Below, piece after piece: positions 23,774 through 32,029 of a DNA stretch of 64,000 bases. This DNA is from Chloroflexota bacterium (GTDB taxonomy: Bacteria; Chloroflexota; Anaerolineae; Promineifilales; Promineifilaceae): NCBI GenBank assembly GCA_013112725.1, contig JABFFZ010000002.1:1-64000 (forward strand), written 5' to 3'. Within the stretch, counting starts at the first letter, position 1, and each line of letters opens with the position of its first letter. Below the pieces are notes generated by a model, which saw only the letters and a list, made by a program, of their open reading frames with translations, had not been told where the DNA came from and did not search any database. A program made the translations under genes and the position numbers.

Positions 23774-24214
23774 TTACAACGTCGTGTCCATAATTGCCCG
23801 GATGTTGATGATGAACTCTCCGGGCGTTTGCATGAGCAGGCCACTTTGGGCAGCTGCTGCCGGCGTAAAATCTTTGGTGTTCAGGGTTAGGAAACGATAG
23901 ACGCCAGCAAGCACGGCCGTTGCCAAAATCGGTGCATCTTTCGCTTCAATAATTCCTACCCACCGGGCCGTTTCCGCAGCCGGCGGGTCAGGCGCAATTT
24001 CCAGGTTTAGGCGGCTCATCAGCGCCACAAATTGCGGGTAAACGCCAGGAAGTTTTTGGCGCATGTTCCGGTCAGCCTCGTCCAATACCTGCCTGGAAAC
24101 TACCAGCGTATACATGCCAAATTCCGCCATTTTCAACACCACATGGCTGGCGCCACTATCTGATGCTGAACCGGCAATGAGGATATTGGCATCGGCAAAA
24201 ATCCTGTTTTTCAT
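23774..24214 (-). CDS. PIN-domain ribonuclease, toxin of a type II pair
   Basis: A 146-residue PIN-fold protein, expected to cut RNA using Mg2+ held by acidic residues. These are visible in IFADANILIAGS (first Asp), VLDEADRN (Glu/Asp), EAKDAPILATAV (Asp) and LNTKDF (last Asp). It overlaps the upstream AbrB-like gene by four bases (ATGA), the usual toxin-antitoxin coupling with the antitoxin first. The target RNA is unknown. Confidence 0.8.
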   Translation of the reverse strand: MKNRIFADANILIAGSASDSGASHVVLKMAEFGMYTLVVSRQVLDEADRNMRQKLPGVYPQFVALMSRLNLEIAPDPPAAETARWVGIIEAKDAPILATAVLAGVYRFLTLNTKDFTPAAAAQSGLLMQTPGEFIINIRAIMDTTL

Positions 24215-24546
24215 TCCCCTACTGCTTCGGCCAGACCTTCGTCCGCCAGACCTTCACCTGCCAGGCGCTCATGCCAGATTGCTTCACGCTCTTGAGCCAA
24301 CCCTTCAAGCAAATCAGCCAATGCCACCCCTGTACGTTCCATTTCGGCTGAAATCTGTTTTGCCAGTTCCGTCACATACAATTTTTTAGGCGTCAAAATG
24401 AGCATGTCATCAATTTGTACCAGGGTTAGCAAATCCAGATTACCTGTATCTTCAACCAACCTTTCGCGCACAGGCTGGGGTAAGGTAAGCTGCCCGCGTT
24501 CCCGCAGCCGCACAGTGTAGGTTTTCACTTTATAGTCCATCGTCAT
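24211..24546 (-). CDS. AbrB/MazE-like antitoxin
   Basis: A 111-residue partner of the PIN toxin. The N-terminal half has a swapped-hairpin AbrB-type DNA-binding fold (TYTVRLRERGQLTLPQPVRERL, LVQIDDMLILTPKK). The C-terminal helices (LAKQISAEMERTGVALADLLEGLAQERE) probably wrap the toxin. It begins with ATG 24546, or ATG 24540 two codons later. It likely represses its own promoter in the gap upstream. Confidence 0.75.
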   Translation of the reverse strand: MTMDYKVKTYTVRLRERGQLTLPQPVRERLVEDTGNLDLLTLVQIDDMLILTPKKLYVTELAKQISAEMERTGVALADLLEGLAQEREAIWHERLAGEGLADEGLAEAVGE

Positions 24547-26207: not shown

Positions 26208-26492
26208 ATGATAGAGTCATTTGCCTCACGAGAAACGGAACGGATTTTCAACGCGCAGATTTCCAGAAAGCTGCCCCATAACATCCAGCAAACAGCCCGC
26301 CGCAAGTTGCTCTATTTACAGGACGCGGATGATTTACGAGACTTAATCGCTCCTCCGGGCAATAGATTGGAGAAGCTGCACGGCAATCGTGAAGGTCAGT
26401 ACAGCATTCGGATCAACGATCAATGGCGTATCTGCTTCCGGTGGGAAAACGGCCGTGCCTTTGATGTGGAAATTGTAGATTATCACTCATAG
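26208..26492 (+). CDS. higB: HigB-like mRNA interferase toxin
   Basis: A 94-residue RelE-superfamily toxin, expected to cut mRNA on the ribosome. RKLLYLQDADDLRDLIAPPG, NRLEKLHGNREGQYSIRIND and QWRICFRWENGRAFDVEIVDYH are the typical HigB stretches, including the basic core and C-terminal strand. As in other HigBA operons the toxin precedes its antitoxin, here by nine bases. A repeated CATGATA just before the start could be part of an operator. Confidence 0.88.
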   Translation: MIESFASRETERIFNAQISRKLPHNIQQTARRKLLYLQDADDLRDLIAPPGNRLEKLHGNREGQYSIRINDQWRICFRWENGRAFDVEIVDYHS

Positions 26493-26501
26493 GGAGTATT
26501 G

Positions 26502-26831
26502 ATGATGGAAGACAAACTATTACCCGTCCATCCTGGCGAAGTTTTGGCCGAAGATTTTATGAAGCCATTGGGTTTGAGCCAATATCGGGTAGCGAAAGAC
26601 ATTGGTGTGCCTGCTTTGCGCATTAGCCAGATTATCAGTGGCAAACGTTCCATTACGGCCGATACCGCCATGCGGTTAGCGCGCTATTTTGGCACCAGCC
26701 CAGATGTCTGGCTGCGTTTGCAAGCCCGGTATGATCTGGAAGTCGCTCAAAATGATTACGGCGATCAAATTGAGCGAGAAGTCAAAGTGCTGGATCAAAG
26801 CCAATATGCCACCTTTGCCCAGACTGGCTAA
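26502..26831 (+). CDS. higA: HigA-family antitoxin
   Basis: A 109-residue XRE-type helix-turn-helix antitoxin. VHPGEVLAEDFMKPLGLSQY leads to the HTH (VAKDIGVPALRISQIISGKR) and RYFGTSPDVWLRLQARYDLE. It neutralises HigB and probably represses the operon. AGGGAG (26491-26496) sits before the tandem ATGs at 26502 and 26505; either could start the protein. Confidence 0.9.
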   Translation: MMEDKLLPVHPGEVLAEDFMKPLGLSQYRVAKDIGVPALRISQIISGKRSITADTAMRLARYFGTSPDVWLRLQARYDLEVAQNDYGDQIEREVKVLDQSQYATFAQTG

Positions 26832-26883: not shown

Positions 26884-27243
26884 ATGTCAGTCACAATTGA
26901 AGCCATTAAACTGCCAGAGAGCGGCCCACTTCATTTAGAGCTAAACCTGACTACCCATATTGCGTTTACGGCCGAAGACGCCCGCCGCAAGGTGAGCGTC
27001 TATGTCGGCAATCACATTGCCGATTTGTTATCCGGCGAGACGCCTACGCTAGTCTGGCGGCAGGAAAGAGCCTTCTGGCGTGTGCCTGTCACTCTCTCAA
27101 GCCGGTCATGGGGGCGAATCGGTCAGGTAGGAACGCTTGACGTGGATGTGCAAACCGGTGAATTACAAATTGAAGATACACAGATTCAGGAAATAGAAGA
27201 CAATGCCGGCCGTTTTGCTGCCAGTGCCACGCAAAGATTGTGA
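26884..27243 (+). CDS. Conserved-looking 119-residue protein, unknown
   Basis: AAGGAG seven bases before ATG 26884 marks a real gene. The product is mostly beta-like (LHLELNLTTHIAFTAEDARR, FWRVPVTLSSRSWGRIGQVG, LDVDVQTGELQI) with an acidic C-terminal helix (IQEIEDNAGRFAASATQRL). I do not recognise the family. Size, position after higBA and the VDVQTGEL strand are compatible with an antitoxin lacking its toxin, but that is only a guess. It still has neighbour-like base composition; the AT-rich cassette begins just after it. Confidence 0.75.
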   Translation: MSVTIEAIKLPESGPLHLELNLTTHIAFTAEDARRKVSVYVGNHIADLLSGETPTLVWRQERAFWRVPVTLSSRSWGRIGQVGTLDVDVQTGELQIEDTQIQEIEDNAGRFAASATQRL

Positions 27244-27336
27244 AGCAAAGAATCGTATCACGTGCAAAGCAGATCAAGATCGAGTTATACCATTCGTAAG
27301 TTATGACGCATATACCAGTCCGAAAAAGGGTCTACA

Positions 27337-27349
27337 CTAAATAATTTAG
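27337..27349. promoter_or_regulatory. Palindromic candidate operator before the AT-rich cassette
   Basis: CTAAATAATTTAG is a perfect 13-base palindrome centred on A, next to the GTAAGGA binding site of the first cassette gene. It would be well placed for autoregulation by the DNA-binding protein that gene encodes. It is short and AT-rich, so chance is possible. Confidence 0.3.
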
Positions 27350-27360
27350 AGTAAGGATTT

Positions 27361-29403
27361 ATGTCACAGGATAATGAAGAGCATTCAACTGTCAGTTATG
27401 TAATGGGTTCTCTTTCATCAGTACCGATAGAACACCTAAATCTATCTATCAGACCCAGAAATGCCTTATTGCGTGCCGGACTAAAAACAGCTTTGGACAT
27501 TCAAAGATTGATAGAGAAAAACACATTATCCAGTATTTATAATATCGGGTCGTTAGCTGTCCAAGAAATAGAGGAATGCCTAAGCTCAATGCTAGAAAAC
27601 CAGGGAATAGAGTTGTCGGTAAGTGAAATCGCATTGCCAGATAATGAGGAACGCAAATCAACTGTAATACCTACTGTATCCTTCTTTGATGATTTACCCG
27701 TGGATATATTGGTACAAGAACTCAGTAACGATATGATACATCGGCTAAAATCAGCAGGCTTTGAAAGTATCGGGGAGTTGCTCAACTTATCTCGAGCTGT
27801 GGAAAGCTTCATTGAGAATACTTCTACAACACTTGACCGACTGATCAACCACCAAAAAGATATTCTTCGGGCACTTATAGCGAGAGAGAAACTTCATCCC
27901 CAAGCACAATATCGCAACATGAGCATCAAATCATGGTTAAACCTCGCCCCAGAGAACACTAACGAACAAGGGGAATTTCTGAAGCTATTATTACAAATAA
28001 ACGAAAGTCATTCTCTGAGTGAAGAACTGTCCATCCTTTTTGCTAAAGTTGCTGAAAGAGATCTTGATATCTATATAAAATACTTCAATGATAACTTGAC
28101 CTTAGCACAAGTTGGAAGGCAACAAGGAGTCACTAGAGAGCGGGTGAGGCAAATCACTTCCAAAACTGCAACTAGATTATGGGCGCGGATAAACCAAAAT
28201 CCCGGATTGTATCTTCAATCAGCCCTGCTAGTAGCAAAAGATATGGGCGATAACTTATCTCTAAAATCATGGAGATTGGCCCTACAAAATAGAAACATTA
28301 TTGATTCTTCACGTCCGGCCCGTGAGAACTTAGATTCCTTTGACGCTCTTTGTGCCCTACTTCGAAGTGCTGATAAAGCTAAATATCCTCCAACAATAAA
28401 AATCGATGAAAGTGTCACATTTATCCTTGAAAGTCCAAGTGATTTGTCTTTGGGGTTAATCAAAGCCATTGAGGAAATGTCCTCGAAGGCAAAAAGAAAA
28501 ATGCACCAGAAAATTAGCTATATGGGGGGGATTCATCTTTCAGAAGCCTCTGAAACTTTAGATGTATCGCCCCAACAAGCTGCATATATCCTTAAGCATT
28601 TAGGATATAAAGAGGTGGATCACGATTGGTATACAATTGCTACTGCTGAAAACACTACCAGATGGCCAATCCTGAAGGCGGGACTTGCTATGATGGAAGT
28701 TTGCGGACCACTAGAATTTAGTGTTTTTTGCGATGGGACAAGAAGATATATTTCTCGATTTTATGATATTCTTGCGCCCCCAAGAGTGATGAAAGCTCAT
28801 ATAGAAGCTTTAGGCTTCGAAGTAGAAGATGATTATGTTAGTTGGAATGAAACGCCAACAGGTTATCTAGCGGAAAGTGACAAATGCTTTGTGCAAGTTG
28901 TAGAAAAACATGGCACAGTCGTAACGTTTCAGGAAGTAGTGGAGTTTTTCCAAGAAAAGGGTTTTTCAATCGCTACAGCTACTGCAAGAGTTTTGCCACA
29001 ATCACCAATTGTAGAAAAAGTCGAGACCGGCCTTTACAAAATTCGTGGCCGAAACCACACTTGGGAAGATATAGAAAATGCCAGAAGTCGTCAGGATCCC
29101 ATTGACTATGACCCAGAAGTGGTCTATGGAATCGATGGCCTCATTAGGTACAAGATAACAATTGGCTCCTGGGCACTTAACGGTGTATTAAGCATCAGTT
29201 CAAACCAACCCCAGCTTCCTGATCTTGGAGATGGATGGGAAATTTTCGTCGAAAACAAATCTCGTGGGATTGCCAAGAGGGATGAACATTTAATTTGGGG
29301 ATTGGGAAGTGCATTTAATGCCCTTGGGGTACAAATCGGAGATAGAGTAGAACTGGCATTTGATGCATGGGAAAAGCCTCTTATTCGAATATCAAAAACC
29401 TGA
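27361..29403 (+). CDS. Cassette protein A: RNAP alpha-CTD-like and sigma region 4-like DNA-binding protein
   Basis: A 680-residue protein that borrows transcription modules. Residues about 18-75 match the RNA polymerase alpha C-terminal domain (PIEHLNLSIRPRNALLRAGL, then IYNIGSLAVQEIEECL). A second helix-hairpin-helix-like unit follows at about 110-145. Residues about 243-275 read as sigma-70 region 4 (LTLAQVGRQQGVTRERVRQI). Two later segments look like winged helices: about 375-430 with ASETLDVSPQQAAYILKHLG, and about 510-575, HARE-HTH-like. The C-terminus has a small beta domain (LGVQIGDRVELAFD). No core polymerase or catalytic motif is visible. Codon use is AT-rich and unlike its neighbours. 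It starts two genes that follow with 1-base spacing and a 4-base overlap. Function is unknown; DNA recognition for the downstream ATPase is my inference. Confidence 0.8.
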   Translation: MSQDNEEHSTVSYVMGSLSSVPIEHLNLSIRPRNALLRAGLKTALDIQRLIEKNTLSSIYNIGSLAVQEIEECLSSMLENQGIELSVSEIALPDNEERKSTVIPTVSFFDDLPVDILVQELSNDMIHRLKSAGFESIGELLNLSRAVESFIENTSTTLDRLINHQKDILRALIAREKLHPQAQYRNMSIKSWLNLAPENTNEQGEFLKLLLQINESHSLSEELSILFAKVAERDLDIYIKYFNDNLTLAQVGRQQGVTRERVRQITSKTATRLWARINQNPGLYLQSALLVAKDMGDNLSLKSWRLALQNRNIIDSSRPARENLDSFDALCALLRSADKAKYPPTIKIDESVTFILESPSDLSLGLIKAIEEMSSKAKRKMHQKISYMGGIHLSEASETLDVSPQQAAYILKHLGYKEVDHDWYTIATAENTTRWPILKAGLAMMEVCGPLEFSVFCDGTRRYISRFYDILAPPRVMKAHIEALGFEVEDDYVSWNETPTGYLAESDKCFVQVVEKHGTVVTFQEVVEFFQEKGFSIATATARVLPQSPIVEKVETGLYKIRGRNHTWEDIENARSRQDPIDYDPEVVYGIDGLIRYKITIGSWALNGVLSISSNQPQLPDLGDGWEIFVENKSRGIAKRDEHLIWGLGSAFNALGVQIGDRVELAFDAWEKPLIRISKT

Positions 29404-29404
29404 C

Positions 29405-29995
29405 ATGACTCAATTCGGCACAATTTTATCTAACTCGCAGATAGTAACCTTAGCTGTCTCAAAATTAGGTGGCGCGACAAAGGCAGTGGATATTGAAGAT
29501 ATTGCAATTCTTGCATATGAAATCTACCCAGAGAAATTTTCCTGGCGTAAATACCCTGAACGCATAGATTTACGAGTTGTTCAATACGCACTAAAGGATG
29601 CCTCAAGTGTACACAAAGGAGAGCCTTTGTTAAAAGGGAATCTTAAACATGGTTATATCCTTACTCCAACAGGTTTGGACTGGGCAGAAAAAAATCAACA
29701 CGTTAGTTTTGAAGATTATAAGGCTGGATCTCGCAAGCAATCTACTACCGACAAACTGTCTATCGAACAAGCCCGGTTACTGAAGAGTAGCGCGTTTGTG
29801 AAATTCGAGGCAAATAGAGTTAAAGACATTAAGTATTCTGACTTTCAGGAATTTGCACGAGTAAATGATTATTTTCCCGAACATGTTCGTCAAAAAAGGT
29901 ATGTGATTGTTCAAAATGCAGTTAGTGGCAACCGTAAGCTTGAAGCCTTGTGGGAGCTACTTGTTGCAGAATTTGTGGAGGAGAAACTAAAATGA
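29405..29995 (+). CDS. Cassette protein B: small wHTH-like adaptor, unknown
   Basis: A 196-residue protein starting one base after the stop of protein A and overlapping the start of protein C as ATGA. The first 90 residues look like a winged helix (IVTLAVSKLGGATKAVDIED, then FSWRKYPERIDLRVVQYALK and GYILTPTGLDWAEKN). The C-terminal half is helical and basic, ending in RKLEALWELLVAEFVEEKLK. I know no named family. Its position between a DNA-binding protein and a GHKL ATPase suggests an adaptor. ATG 29405 is preferred to an upstream in-frame ATG inside gene A. Confidence 0.75.
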   Translation: MTQFGTILSNSQIVTLAVSKLGGATKAVDIEDIAILAYEIYPEKFSWRKYPERIDLRVVQYALKDASSVHKGEPLLKGNLKHGYILTPTGLDWAEKNQHVSFEDYKAGSRKQSTTDKLSIEQARLLKSSAFVKFEANRVKDIKYSDFQEFARVNDYFPEHVRQKRYVIVQNAVSGNRKLEALWELLVAEFVEEKLK

Positions 29996-31671
29996 CCCAT
30001 CAAAGTATCACAGTAACAAGCCATGTAGCTCGTGATTTCCTACAAAACGCAGTTTATTTCAACACACTCCCAAAAGTTATCTGGGAATATGTCTCTAACT
30101 CTCTAGATAACGCAAAGGATGATACTCCGGTAACTGTATCTGTAGATTTGTTGCCCACCAAACCAAAGACTCTTCAAATCGCAGACAACGGCATTGGAAT
30201 GTCTCGAAAGGCTCTGCTCCAATTCTTTCAAATGCATGGAGAAAATGTTCAAAGGAAAAAAGGCAAGCGGGTTCGGGGACGATTCGGCACAGGCAAGTCG
30301 GCAGCCTTCGGAGTTGCAAATACCCTTGTTATTGACACAGTACAAAATGGTATTCGCAATGTCGTGGAGTTGACCCGTGATGCGATAGAAAACGCAAGTC
30401 ATGGGGGCGCCTTTCCCGTCGAAGAATTGGTCAACAATGAGGTGGTGGACAGAGAAGATGGCACCATTGTCCAGATTACTAACTTTATTAACCCAAGATT
30501 CAACTTCGAACAAACTATTACATATATTGAGCGACATTTGGGCCGCTACAAATCCCGTGCCACAGTAATTATTAATGGGCATAATTGTAAGTTTCGAGAA
30601 CCAGCATCAATACGGAGTTTTTCGTTTACTCCTCCTCCTGATGTCACAAAAAGAATTAGCGAAATCGAGTTATTGATAAAGGTTGCTCCAACCCCTTTAG
30701 AGAAAGAATTCAATGGGATAGATATTCTCTCATATGGAATCTGGCATGAAACAACTCTTGCCGGCATCGAGAACAAGGATCTAGCTAACAGAATTTTTGG
30801 TGAAGTTGATGTACCTAAACTAGAAGATTATGAGGGGGCAATTCCAGCATTTGACAATACACGTAACAATCAACTGAATCGGTCAAATCCTCTTGTGATT
30901 GTCTTGCTTGGCTGGATTGCATCAGAGGTTGAGAATGTTAGAAAAATTCTAGTTGAAGAAGAACGTGAACGTAAACGTGGCGAACAGTTCAAACGGTTAG
31001 AGGAACGGGCGAAGGAAATAGAGAGCATACTAAATGAGGACTTTCTAACCATACTTGACCAATACGAATTGGCCAGAAAAGTTAGTGCGAGGAAGTCAAC
31101 AAAACTGTCAACAGGGCCTGGGGAAGATGGGGAAGTTTTGCCTGAGGATGGAGATGAAATATCAAAATGGCAGGTTGCTGGACATCCACATGGTAAAGGT
31201 ATAAAGGGGAGCCAACCCCCAGGTGAAGGGGCAACTCCCAGACCAGGAGGTCCCAGTCTTATCGTAGGAACTCAAAAAGGTTCTCCAAAAGAAATCACAG
31301 AAACTGGCGACACGTCTAAAAATAACAAGAAACGAAGGGGTATTTTTACTATTGAATGGACGGAGGGATCCCCTGATGACAATCGTTCAGAATACAAGAA
31401 GGATACAAGGACAATCTATATTAATTTGAGTCACCCACAAGTATCATCTGCTCTCAAAGCAAGTGGAGGGGTGGTAGATTCCCGCCAGTTCAAAGAAATT
31501 GTTTATGAAATTGCAGTAGTAGAATATGCACTTGCTGTGCAATATGAACGAGCAGAAAGTGAAGAGGTTGATCCTTTTGATGCCCTATTTGAAGTGGGTA
31601 GCATTATAGATCGTGTCACTCGAAAAATATCACTGTTACTTTCGACCCCATCCTCCCCCAAAAACCCATGA
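29992..31671 (+). CDS. Cassette protein C: GHKL (Hsp90/MORC/MutL-like) ATPase
   Basis: A 559-residue ATPase preceded by GGAGGAG. The Bergerat fold is clear: N-box WEYVSNSLDNA with E32, N36 and D39, G1 box IADNGIGM (65-70), and a G2 lid RGRFGTGKSAAFGVAN (about 95-110). This would dimerise on ATP binding as MORC and MutL do. A transducer-like domain follows to about residue 330, then a charged coiled coil (VEEERERKRGEQFKRLEERA), a low-complexity Gly/Pro linker, and a C-terminal domain (about 450-559) with a conserved-looking beta start (IFTIEWTEG) and helical end. There is no kinase, topoisomerase or MutL nuclease motif. Role unknown; MORC-like relatives occur in conflict and DNA-modification systems. 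Confidence 0.85.
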   Translation: MTHQSITVTSHVARDFLQNAVYFNTLPKVIWEYVSNSLDNAKDDTPVTVSVDLLPTKPKTLQIADNGIGMSRKALLQFFQMHGENVQRKKGKRVRGRFGTGKSAAFGVANTLVIDTVQNGIRNVVELTRDAIENASHGGAFPVEELVNNEVVDREDGTIVQITNFINPRFNFEQTITYIERHLGRYKSRATVIINGHNCKFREPASIRSFSFTPPPDVTKRISEIELLIKVAPTPLEKEFNGIDILSYGIWHETTLAGIENKDLANRIFGEVDVPKLEDYEGAIPAFDNTRNNQLNRSNPLVIVLLGWIASEVENVRKILVEEERERKRGEQFKRLEERAKEIESILNEDFLTILDQYELARKVSARKSTKLSTGPGEDGEVLPEDGDEISKWQVAGHPHGKGIKGSQPPGEGATPRPGGPSLIVGTQKGSPKEITETGDTSKNNKKRRGIFTIEWTEGSPDDNRSEYKKDTRTIYINLSHPQVSSALKASGGVVDSRQFKEIVYEIAVVEYALAVQYERAESEEVDPFDALFEVGSIIDRVTRKISLLLSTPSSPKNP

Positions 31672-31699
31672 AATCCCTGGCAAATTTTGAGTGAACATC

Positions 31700-32029
31700 A
31701 TGGTTCGTGTACCTACCCACCGCGCCCCCACCCATCCGGGGGAGATGTTATTGGAAGAATTTCTAACGCCGATGGGCATTAGCCAACGTGATTTGGCTGA
31801 CGCCATTCACGTGCCTTATCAGCGGATCAACGAAATTGTCAACGGCCGTCGTGGTATCACCCCCAGCACAGCCCTCCGTTTAGCCAAATTCTTTGGCGGC
31901 GAAGCTGGTTTTTGGATGAACCTTCAACTGCGATGGGATTTGTACCAGGTACAACAGTCGGAAGCACAGATATTACAAACGATTGAGCCACGTCAGATTC
32001 CTGCAAGCGAAAGCATCACCCCGTCGTAA
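31700..32029 (+). CDS. Orphan HigA-family antitoxin-like regulator
   Basis: A 109-residue XRE-type protein of the HigA family: RAPTHPGEMLLEEFLTPMGI, HTH region LADAIHVPYQRINEIVNGRR, and FFGGEAGFWMNLQLRWDLYQ. No higB gene precedes it; the AT-rich cassette ends just 28 bases upstream. It may have lost its toxin when the cassette inserted, or may act in trans on HigB at 26208. GTG 31691 is an alternative start, but ATG 31700 gives the usual N-terminus. GC-rich composition and ACGGCCGT (about 31842) return here. Confidence 0.85.
   Translation: MVRVPTHRAPTHPGEMLLEEFLTPMGISQRDLADAIHVPYQRINEIVNGRRGITPSTALRLAKFFGGEAGFWMNLQLRWDLYQVQQSEAQILQTIEPRQIPASESITPS

Follow-up and report, generated by a model that had tools for sequence, protein, structure and literature searches.

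Background

MORC and paraMORC ATPases found in restriction operons have been proposed to drive DNA looping (PMC2292703), the MZA system, which comprises a sigma factor, is related to a predicted defence system (PMC9523054), and PglW carries an alpha-CTD-like domain followed by winged helices (PMC12839542). We compare with these systems an operon of three genes, hereafter A, B and C, carried by a 64,000 nt stretch of Chloroflexota DNA (the window). No description of the A-B-C operon was found in open-access papers, and no model of the unit is found in Pfam, NCBIfam or PADLOC.

Results

Alpha-CTD and sigma region 4 are modules that, within RNA polymerase (RNAP), touch promoters and each other. 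Both occur in the protein of gene A (27361..29403, + strand; ATG start, 680 aa), which is predicted to be a DNA-targeting protein from Pfam, profile-profile and PDB profile comparisons. Indeed, Pfam places RNA_pol_A_CTD at residues 19-75 (27415..27585, +; E 3.1e-11, 43.3 bits against a cut-off of 23.8) and Sigma70_r4 at residues 229-273 (28045..28179, +; E 5e-8, 32.8 bits against a cut-off of 24.1), the latter with its T-R-E-R-V-R-Q recognition helix intact. When 20,000 shuffles of the protein were scored with models derived from authentic RpoA and RpoD proteins, gene A reached 43.4 bits for alpha-CTD against a shuffle maximum of 10.3, and 19.4 bits for sigma region 4 against a maximum of 11.0. 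The modules are kept in the family (sigma region 4 in 13 of 14 homologues, alpha-CTD in 12 of 14), and a profile of these 14 homologues matched the sigma region 4 chain of RpoS (3.8e-16) and an alpha-CTD chain (1.6e-14) in the PDB. An earlier note, which had seen an alpha-CTD near residue 20 and a sigma region 4 near residue 245 in one 680-residue protein devoid of sigma region 2, is thus borne out: the reading frame is exact, and no region 2 match was found by Pfam at E up to 1. The N-terminal assembly domain of the alpha subunit is also absent, since NCBIfam rpoA matches span only positions ~229-344 of the model, its C-terminal part, and stay far under the cut-off.

Beyond these two modules, a degenerate second alpha-CTD-like module was found at residues ~105-185 (27673..27915, +), with an hhalign probability of 97% against a genuine RpoA CTD profile and a weak single-sequence match (0.016). 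The number of alpha-CTD units varies among homologues and reaches six in the 1362-aa protein of locus L051 (L051:2318-6406), which also carries N-terminal TPR repeats. The extra winged helices announced by the earlier note were recovered by profile-profile comparison only: residues ~498-576 (28852..29088, +) gave 93% for HARE-HTH (MarR control 11%, shuffled columns at most 2.5%), residues ~370-430 (28468..28650, +) tentatively gave 67% for MarR, and residues 285-376 were weakly HARE-like (69%). By single sequence, no HARE-HTH was seen in gene A (PF05066, no match at E up to 1; our own HARE model, 0.8 bits). Nevertheless, the suggested comparison of the C-terminal winged helix with HARE-HTH did reveal a likeness at the profile level, and a stand-alone Chloroflexota relative, L134, has alpha-CTD, sigma region 4 and HARE-HTH all above Pfam cut-offs and therefore backs the HARE lead. 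Gene A also has a C-terminal beta-rich stretch.

The DNA-contact residues are numbered here as in the E. coli proteins. Equivalents of sigma70 R584, E585, R586, R588 and Q589 are kept in 12-13 of 13 gene A homologues, and those of alpha R265 and G296 in 12 of 13; equivalents of K298 and S299 occur in 6 and 8 of 13, respectively. The window protein retains R265, N268, G296 and E302 as R31, N34, G63 and E69, and has L65 and A66 at the positions of K298 and S299. Since the -35-recognition residues of sigma region 4 and alpha-CTD R265 and G296 are near-invariant across the family, DNA targeting is the best reading of their reuse. On these grounds gene A is best read as resembling a promoter-element reader; being devoid of the core-binding region 2, it is ruled out as a sigma factor. 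The reuse of promoter-contact modules proposed in the earlier note therefore stands as far as DNA targeting is concerned but not as the work of a lone protein, since gene A opens a conserved and mobile A-B-C operon.

Two named candidates were rejected for gene A. As MzaA, it scored 25.5 bits over residues 217-273 only, against an NCBIfam cut-off of 800; the same model matches whole host sigma factors at ~390 bits, over 233-716. As PglW, it gave no S/T/Y kinase domain match in Pfam.

Gene B (29405..29995, +; 196 aa) is separated from gene A by 1 nt and overlaps gene C by ATGA. It is a conserved partner with no match in Pfam, NCBIfam or PDB, nor to HARE, MarR, alpha-CTD or sigma region 4 profiles. 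Gene C (29992..31671, +) encodes a 559-aa GHKL (Bergerat-fold) ATPase of the MutL/MORC type and a putative paraMORC, a group marked by an S5 domain behind the GHKL part and by motifs of its own (HATPase_c_3, E 5e-17, above cut-off), with the N-box E..N, DxGxG and GxxGxGK motifs present; among 21 homologues, E32, N36, G69, G99, G101, K102, G157 and T158 are invariant and D65 is conserved in at least 90%. Its closest named model is the BbrUII/HgiDII restriction enzyme of NCBIfam, which, like the MzaB model, is matched by 19 of 21 gene C members far under its cut-off. Both identities were rejected, as gene C scored 51.8 bits against the full-length BbrUII/HgiDII cut-off of 550, covering only the N-terminal GHKL third (20-207 of 659), and 17 bits against the MzaB cut-off of 850, in the GHKL part only. 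None of the three proteins shows a recognisable nuclease.

Relatives of B and C also occur apart from gene A. Divergent B-like and C-like (GHKL) pairs without A were seen in related Chloroflexota (L065, L067, L069, L070 and L071), three of which (L067, L069 and L070) share one fixed site near polX and PRPP synthetase genes (neighbours named by eye). C-like GHKL proteins with a proline-rich N-terminal extension lie by FecR/CHASE2-type genes, again by eye, without A or B (L044, L045 and L047). In L066 (8530-9459), a gene-B-like N-terminal domain is fused to RNA_pol_Rpb2_45 (beta external-1, E 4e-20) and a PQQ propeller, a further RNAP-derived module adjoining a B-like domain.

A search of 400 Chloroflexota genomes with gene A gave two clear homologues, both with B and C alongside. 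The first contig scan using gene A alone gave no match, and an alignment of gene C was needed; with gene C, 84,980 genomes yielded 20 loci. By phmmer and Pfam, 14 distinct loci, the window among them, have complete A, B and C genes adjoining each other, A of L042 running off its contig end. Outside these 14 are L036, where A is cut by the contig end, and L049, where it is split; L053 repeats the alphaproteobacterial L043. The hosts belong to Chloroflexota, Poribacteria, Bacillota, Bacteroidales, Proteobacteria/SAR11 and Arthrobacter (the split A). The three genes mostly overlap or sit within 3 nt of each other, and their order is mostly A-B-C, with B-C-A in L043 and L050 and a divergent A in L042, L048 and L049; in the SAR11 locus L050, A seemed missing at first, and the order was assigned because the downstream gene carries an alpha-CTD and a weak sigma region 4.

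The trees of A, B and C are congruent (r 0.93, 0.93 and 0.87; 0 of 5000 permutations), and phyla are mixed within them: the window groups with a Bacillota contig, and other Chloroflexi group with Bacteroidales and with Proteobacteria. Many loci lie on metagenome-assembled contigs, and therefore single placements may be binning errors, but the cross-phylum pattern as a whole does not rest on any one of them. Among viral contigs, phages and plasmids, we found one distant C-like plasmid match and no phage match.

At the window locus, the operon has 41.3% GC in a neighbourhood of ~57%, whereas equal-length stretches elsewhere in the window never fall below 51.5%, and its GC3 is ~0.33 against 0.66-0.74 in flanking genes. 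A same-genus relative (G610) matches the window at ~91% up to position 27228 and again from 32013, with 416 bp where the window has 4784 bp. Besides A-B-C, the replaced block (27229..32012) carries an orphan HigA-like antitoxin gene, which lies downstream of gene C (31691..32029, +); at the G610 site, an apparent piece of a C39-type peptidase gene stands in place of the operon (L072:2900-3345). Gene B occurs in 9 of 396 genomes of the class (2%), and the listed genomes of the same genus or family all lack it; among the nine, the full A-B-C set is found only in the window and in the genome of L051. No promoter above chance was detected around the window operon, and no Rfam element near it. A HigBA toxin-antitoxin pair just upstream (26208..26831, +) is common to G610 and is context outside the cassette. 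At 23774-24546 of the window, a PIN-domain gene and its AbrB-like partner probably form a further toxin-antitoxin pair.

Over the other loci, restriction, toxin-antitoxin or Abi genes are often near A-B-C, as raw counts in genomes where toxin-antitoxin neighbours are common. A type ISP restriction enzyme adjoins gene A in L049, an N4/N6 DNA methyltransferase follows gene C in L032, and neighbours elsewhere are PDC-S11, a defence candidate, in L048, a PIN toxin in L052, and both AbiEi and a Schlafen/AlbA_2 protein in L051. Only housekeeping neighbours surround the Poribacteria loci.

Discussion

Our preferred explanation, to which we give an even chance, is that A-B-C constitutes a mobile three-component module of the genome-defence type, with A targeting promoter-like DNA and acting together with B to deploy the ATPase C. 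It is favoured by the low GC of the operon, the site without it in G610, the rarity of gene B in the class, the restriction, Abi and toxin-antitoxin neighbours, the matches of C to the BbrUII/HgiDII and MzaB models, and the analogy with MORC/paraMORC operons, the MZA system and PglW. Genes A, B and C are inherited together and transferred horizontally as one operon; their domains are recognisable, the ATPase site is intact and the DNA-contact residues are preserved. A conserved, horizontally moving operon with a GHKL ATPase points to a genome-defence or DNA-manipulation system, and less to a plain RNAP regulator. In such a module, the alpha-CTD units of A would bind AT-rich, UP-element-like DNA and its sigma region 4 would read a -35-like sequence, A settling presumably on promoter-like DNA. 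B may act as a dedicated adaptor in a putative complex with A, and C as a GHKL dimer of the MORC/MutL kind, switched by ATP, whose loading onto the marked DNA would be the task of A and B. C would then clamp or compact this DNA, and transcription or processing of invading DNA would be blocked, silencing being the proposed outcome. Several observations speak against a defence role, namely the housekeeping-only surroundings in Poribacteria, the lack of a recognised nuclease, the window alpha-CTD devoid of K298 and S299 equivalents, the general abundance of toxin-antitoxin genes in such genomes, and the A-less B-like/C-like pairs that sit, apparently vertically inherited, at a fixed housekeeping-like site (L067, L069 and L070).

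The promoter contacts and mutual contacts of the two modules in RNAP, which are textbook knowledge, leave room for a regulator directed at RNAP itself, with sigma region 4 on the beta flap and/or -35 boxes, alpha-CTD on UP elements or on sigma region 4, RNAP blocked or redirected, and C as a regulatory ATPase switch controlling a host stress response or neighbour genes. Proteins with alpha-CTD, sigma region 4 and HARE do stand alone without B and C, and pairs of GHKL and winged-helix proteins, CapK/CapS, control immune operons (PMC13373217). However, the closed three-gene unit crosses phyla with no constant target gene adjoining, and family searches place C with the MutL/MORC/restriction-enzyme type and not mainly with histidine kinases; we therefore regard this regulator as rather unlikely. 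The CapK/CapS/VapKSC precedent and the toxin-antitoxin neighbours would also agree with C being a GHKL switch, akin to a protein kinase or a chaperone, that works with B in a signalling or toxin-antitoxin-like circuit, A merely autoregulating the operon. This is very improbable, given that no STAS domain is matched, that no toxin gene is constant over the loci, and that A is the largest member and a constant one.

That A, B and C form the recognition and motor part of a restriction system, the nuclease or methyltransferase acting in trans or coming from neighbours, would fit the closest named model of C, the methyltransferase of L032, the type ISP enzyme of L049 and the described paraMORC operons (PMC2292703). 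Against it, the restriction-enzyme model is matched in its GHKL third only, and no nuclease or methyltransferase is constantly found with A-B-C, none adjoining in the window, which makes such a system quite unlikely. Finally, the idea that the domain matches of gene A arose by chance or that the gene is a decayed fragment is refuted, as the scores lie far above those of the shuffles, the 14 homologues conserve the modules, and the frames are open throughout.

If the defence-type reading is right, A-B-C is an undescribed mobile three-gene unit among GHKL-based conflict systems, one that a narrow scan found in at least six bacterial phyla and that links modules for promoter recognition with an ATPase of the MORC/MutL type; parts of the transcription machinery would serve as a targeting device, and MORC function could be studied in a small bacterial model. 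An unlikely further step is an immune system of a new class, which would sense invaders by their promoters, with 1-6 alpha-CTD units and sigma region 4 guiding a MORC-like ATP-gated clamp that silences foreign DNA. Such a promoter-guided clamp, if true, would be a bacterial parallel of MORC-mediated silencing.

Comparison with known systems

The combination of alpha-CTD and sigma region 4, with or without HARE-HTH, is not unique to gene A, since stand-alone proteins of other Chloroflexota show the same module order outside the operon, with no B or C adjoining. The 785-aa protein of L134 (4949-7306) has several alpha-CTD/HhH units, sigma region 4 and HARE-HTH. That of L133 (5069-7690; 873 aa) carries alpha-CTD and sigma region 4, and differs in its C-terminal part, where a HEPN-like RxxRNxxAH pattern was noticed by eye and Pfam gives no match.

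CapK/CapS (PMC13373217) is likewise situated near immune genes and joins a GHKL protein to a winged-helix protein that binds DNA, but is a STAS-based kinase-repressor pair. The profile of PglW from type 2 BREX matches gene A across alpha-CTD and sigma region 4; in contrast to PglW, gene A is devoid of kinase, NERD and ATPase domains, and further BREX genes were not seen in its vicinity. The MZA anti-phage system also joins a sigma-70-type protein (MzaA) to a MutL-like ATPase (MzaB), with weak local matches between A and MzaA and between C and MzaB. However, the MzaA model spans an entire sigma factor whereas A has region 4 and alpha-CTD only, and MzaC, D and E are not found near A-B-C. Lastly, restriction-type MORC/paraMORC operons (PMC2292703) share with our locus a GHKL ATPase with intact motifs, a sporadic and laterally mobile distribution and, at times, a position beside restriction genes, but their ATPases are partnered by an SFII helicase and a nuclease, whereas the partners of gene C are A and B.
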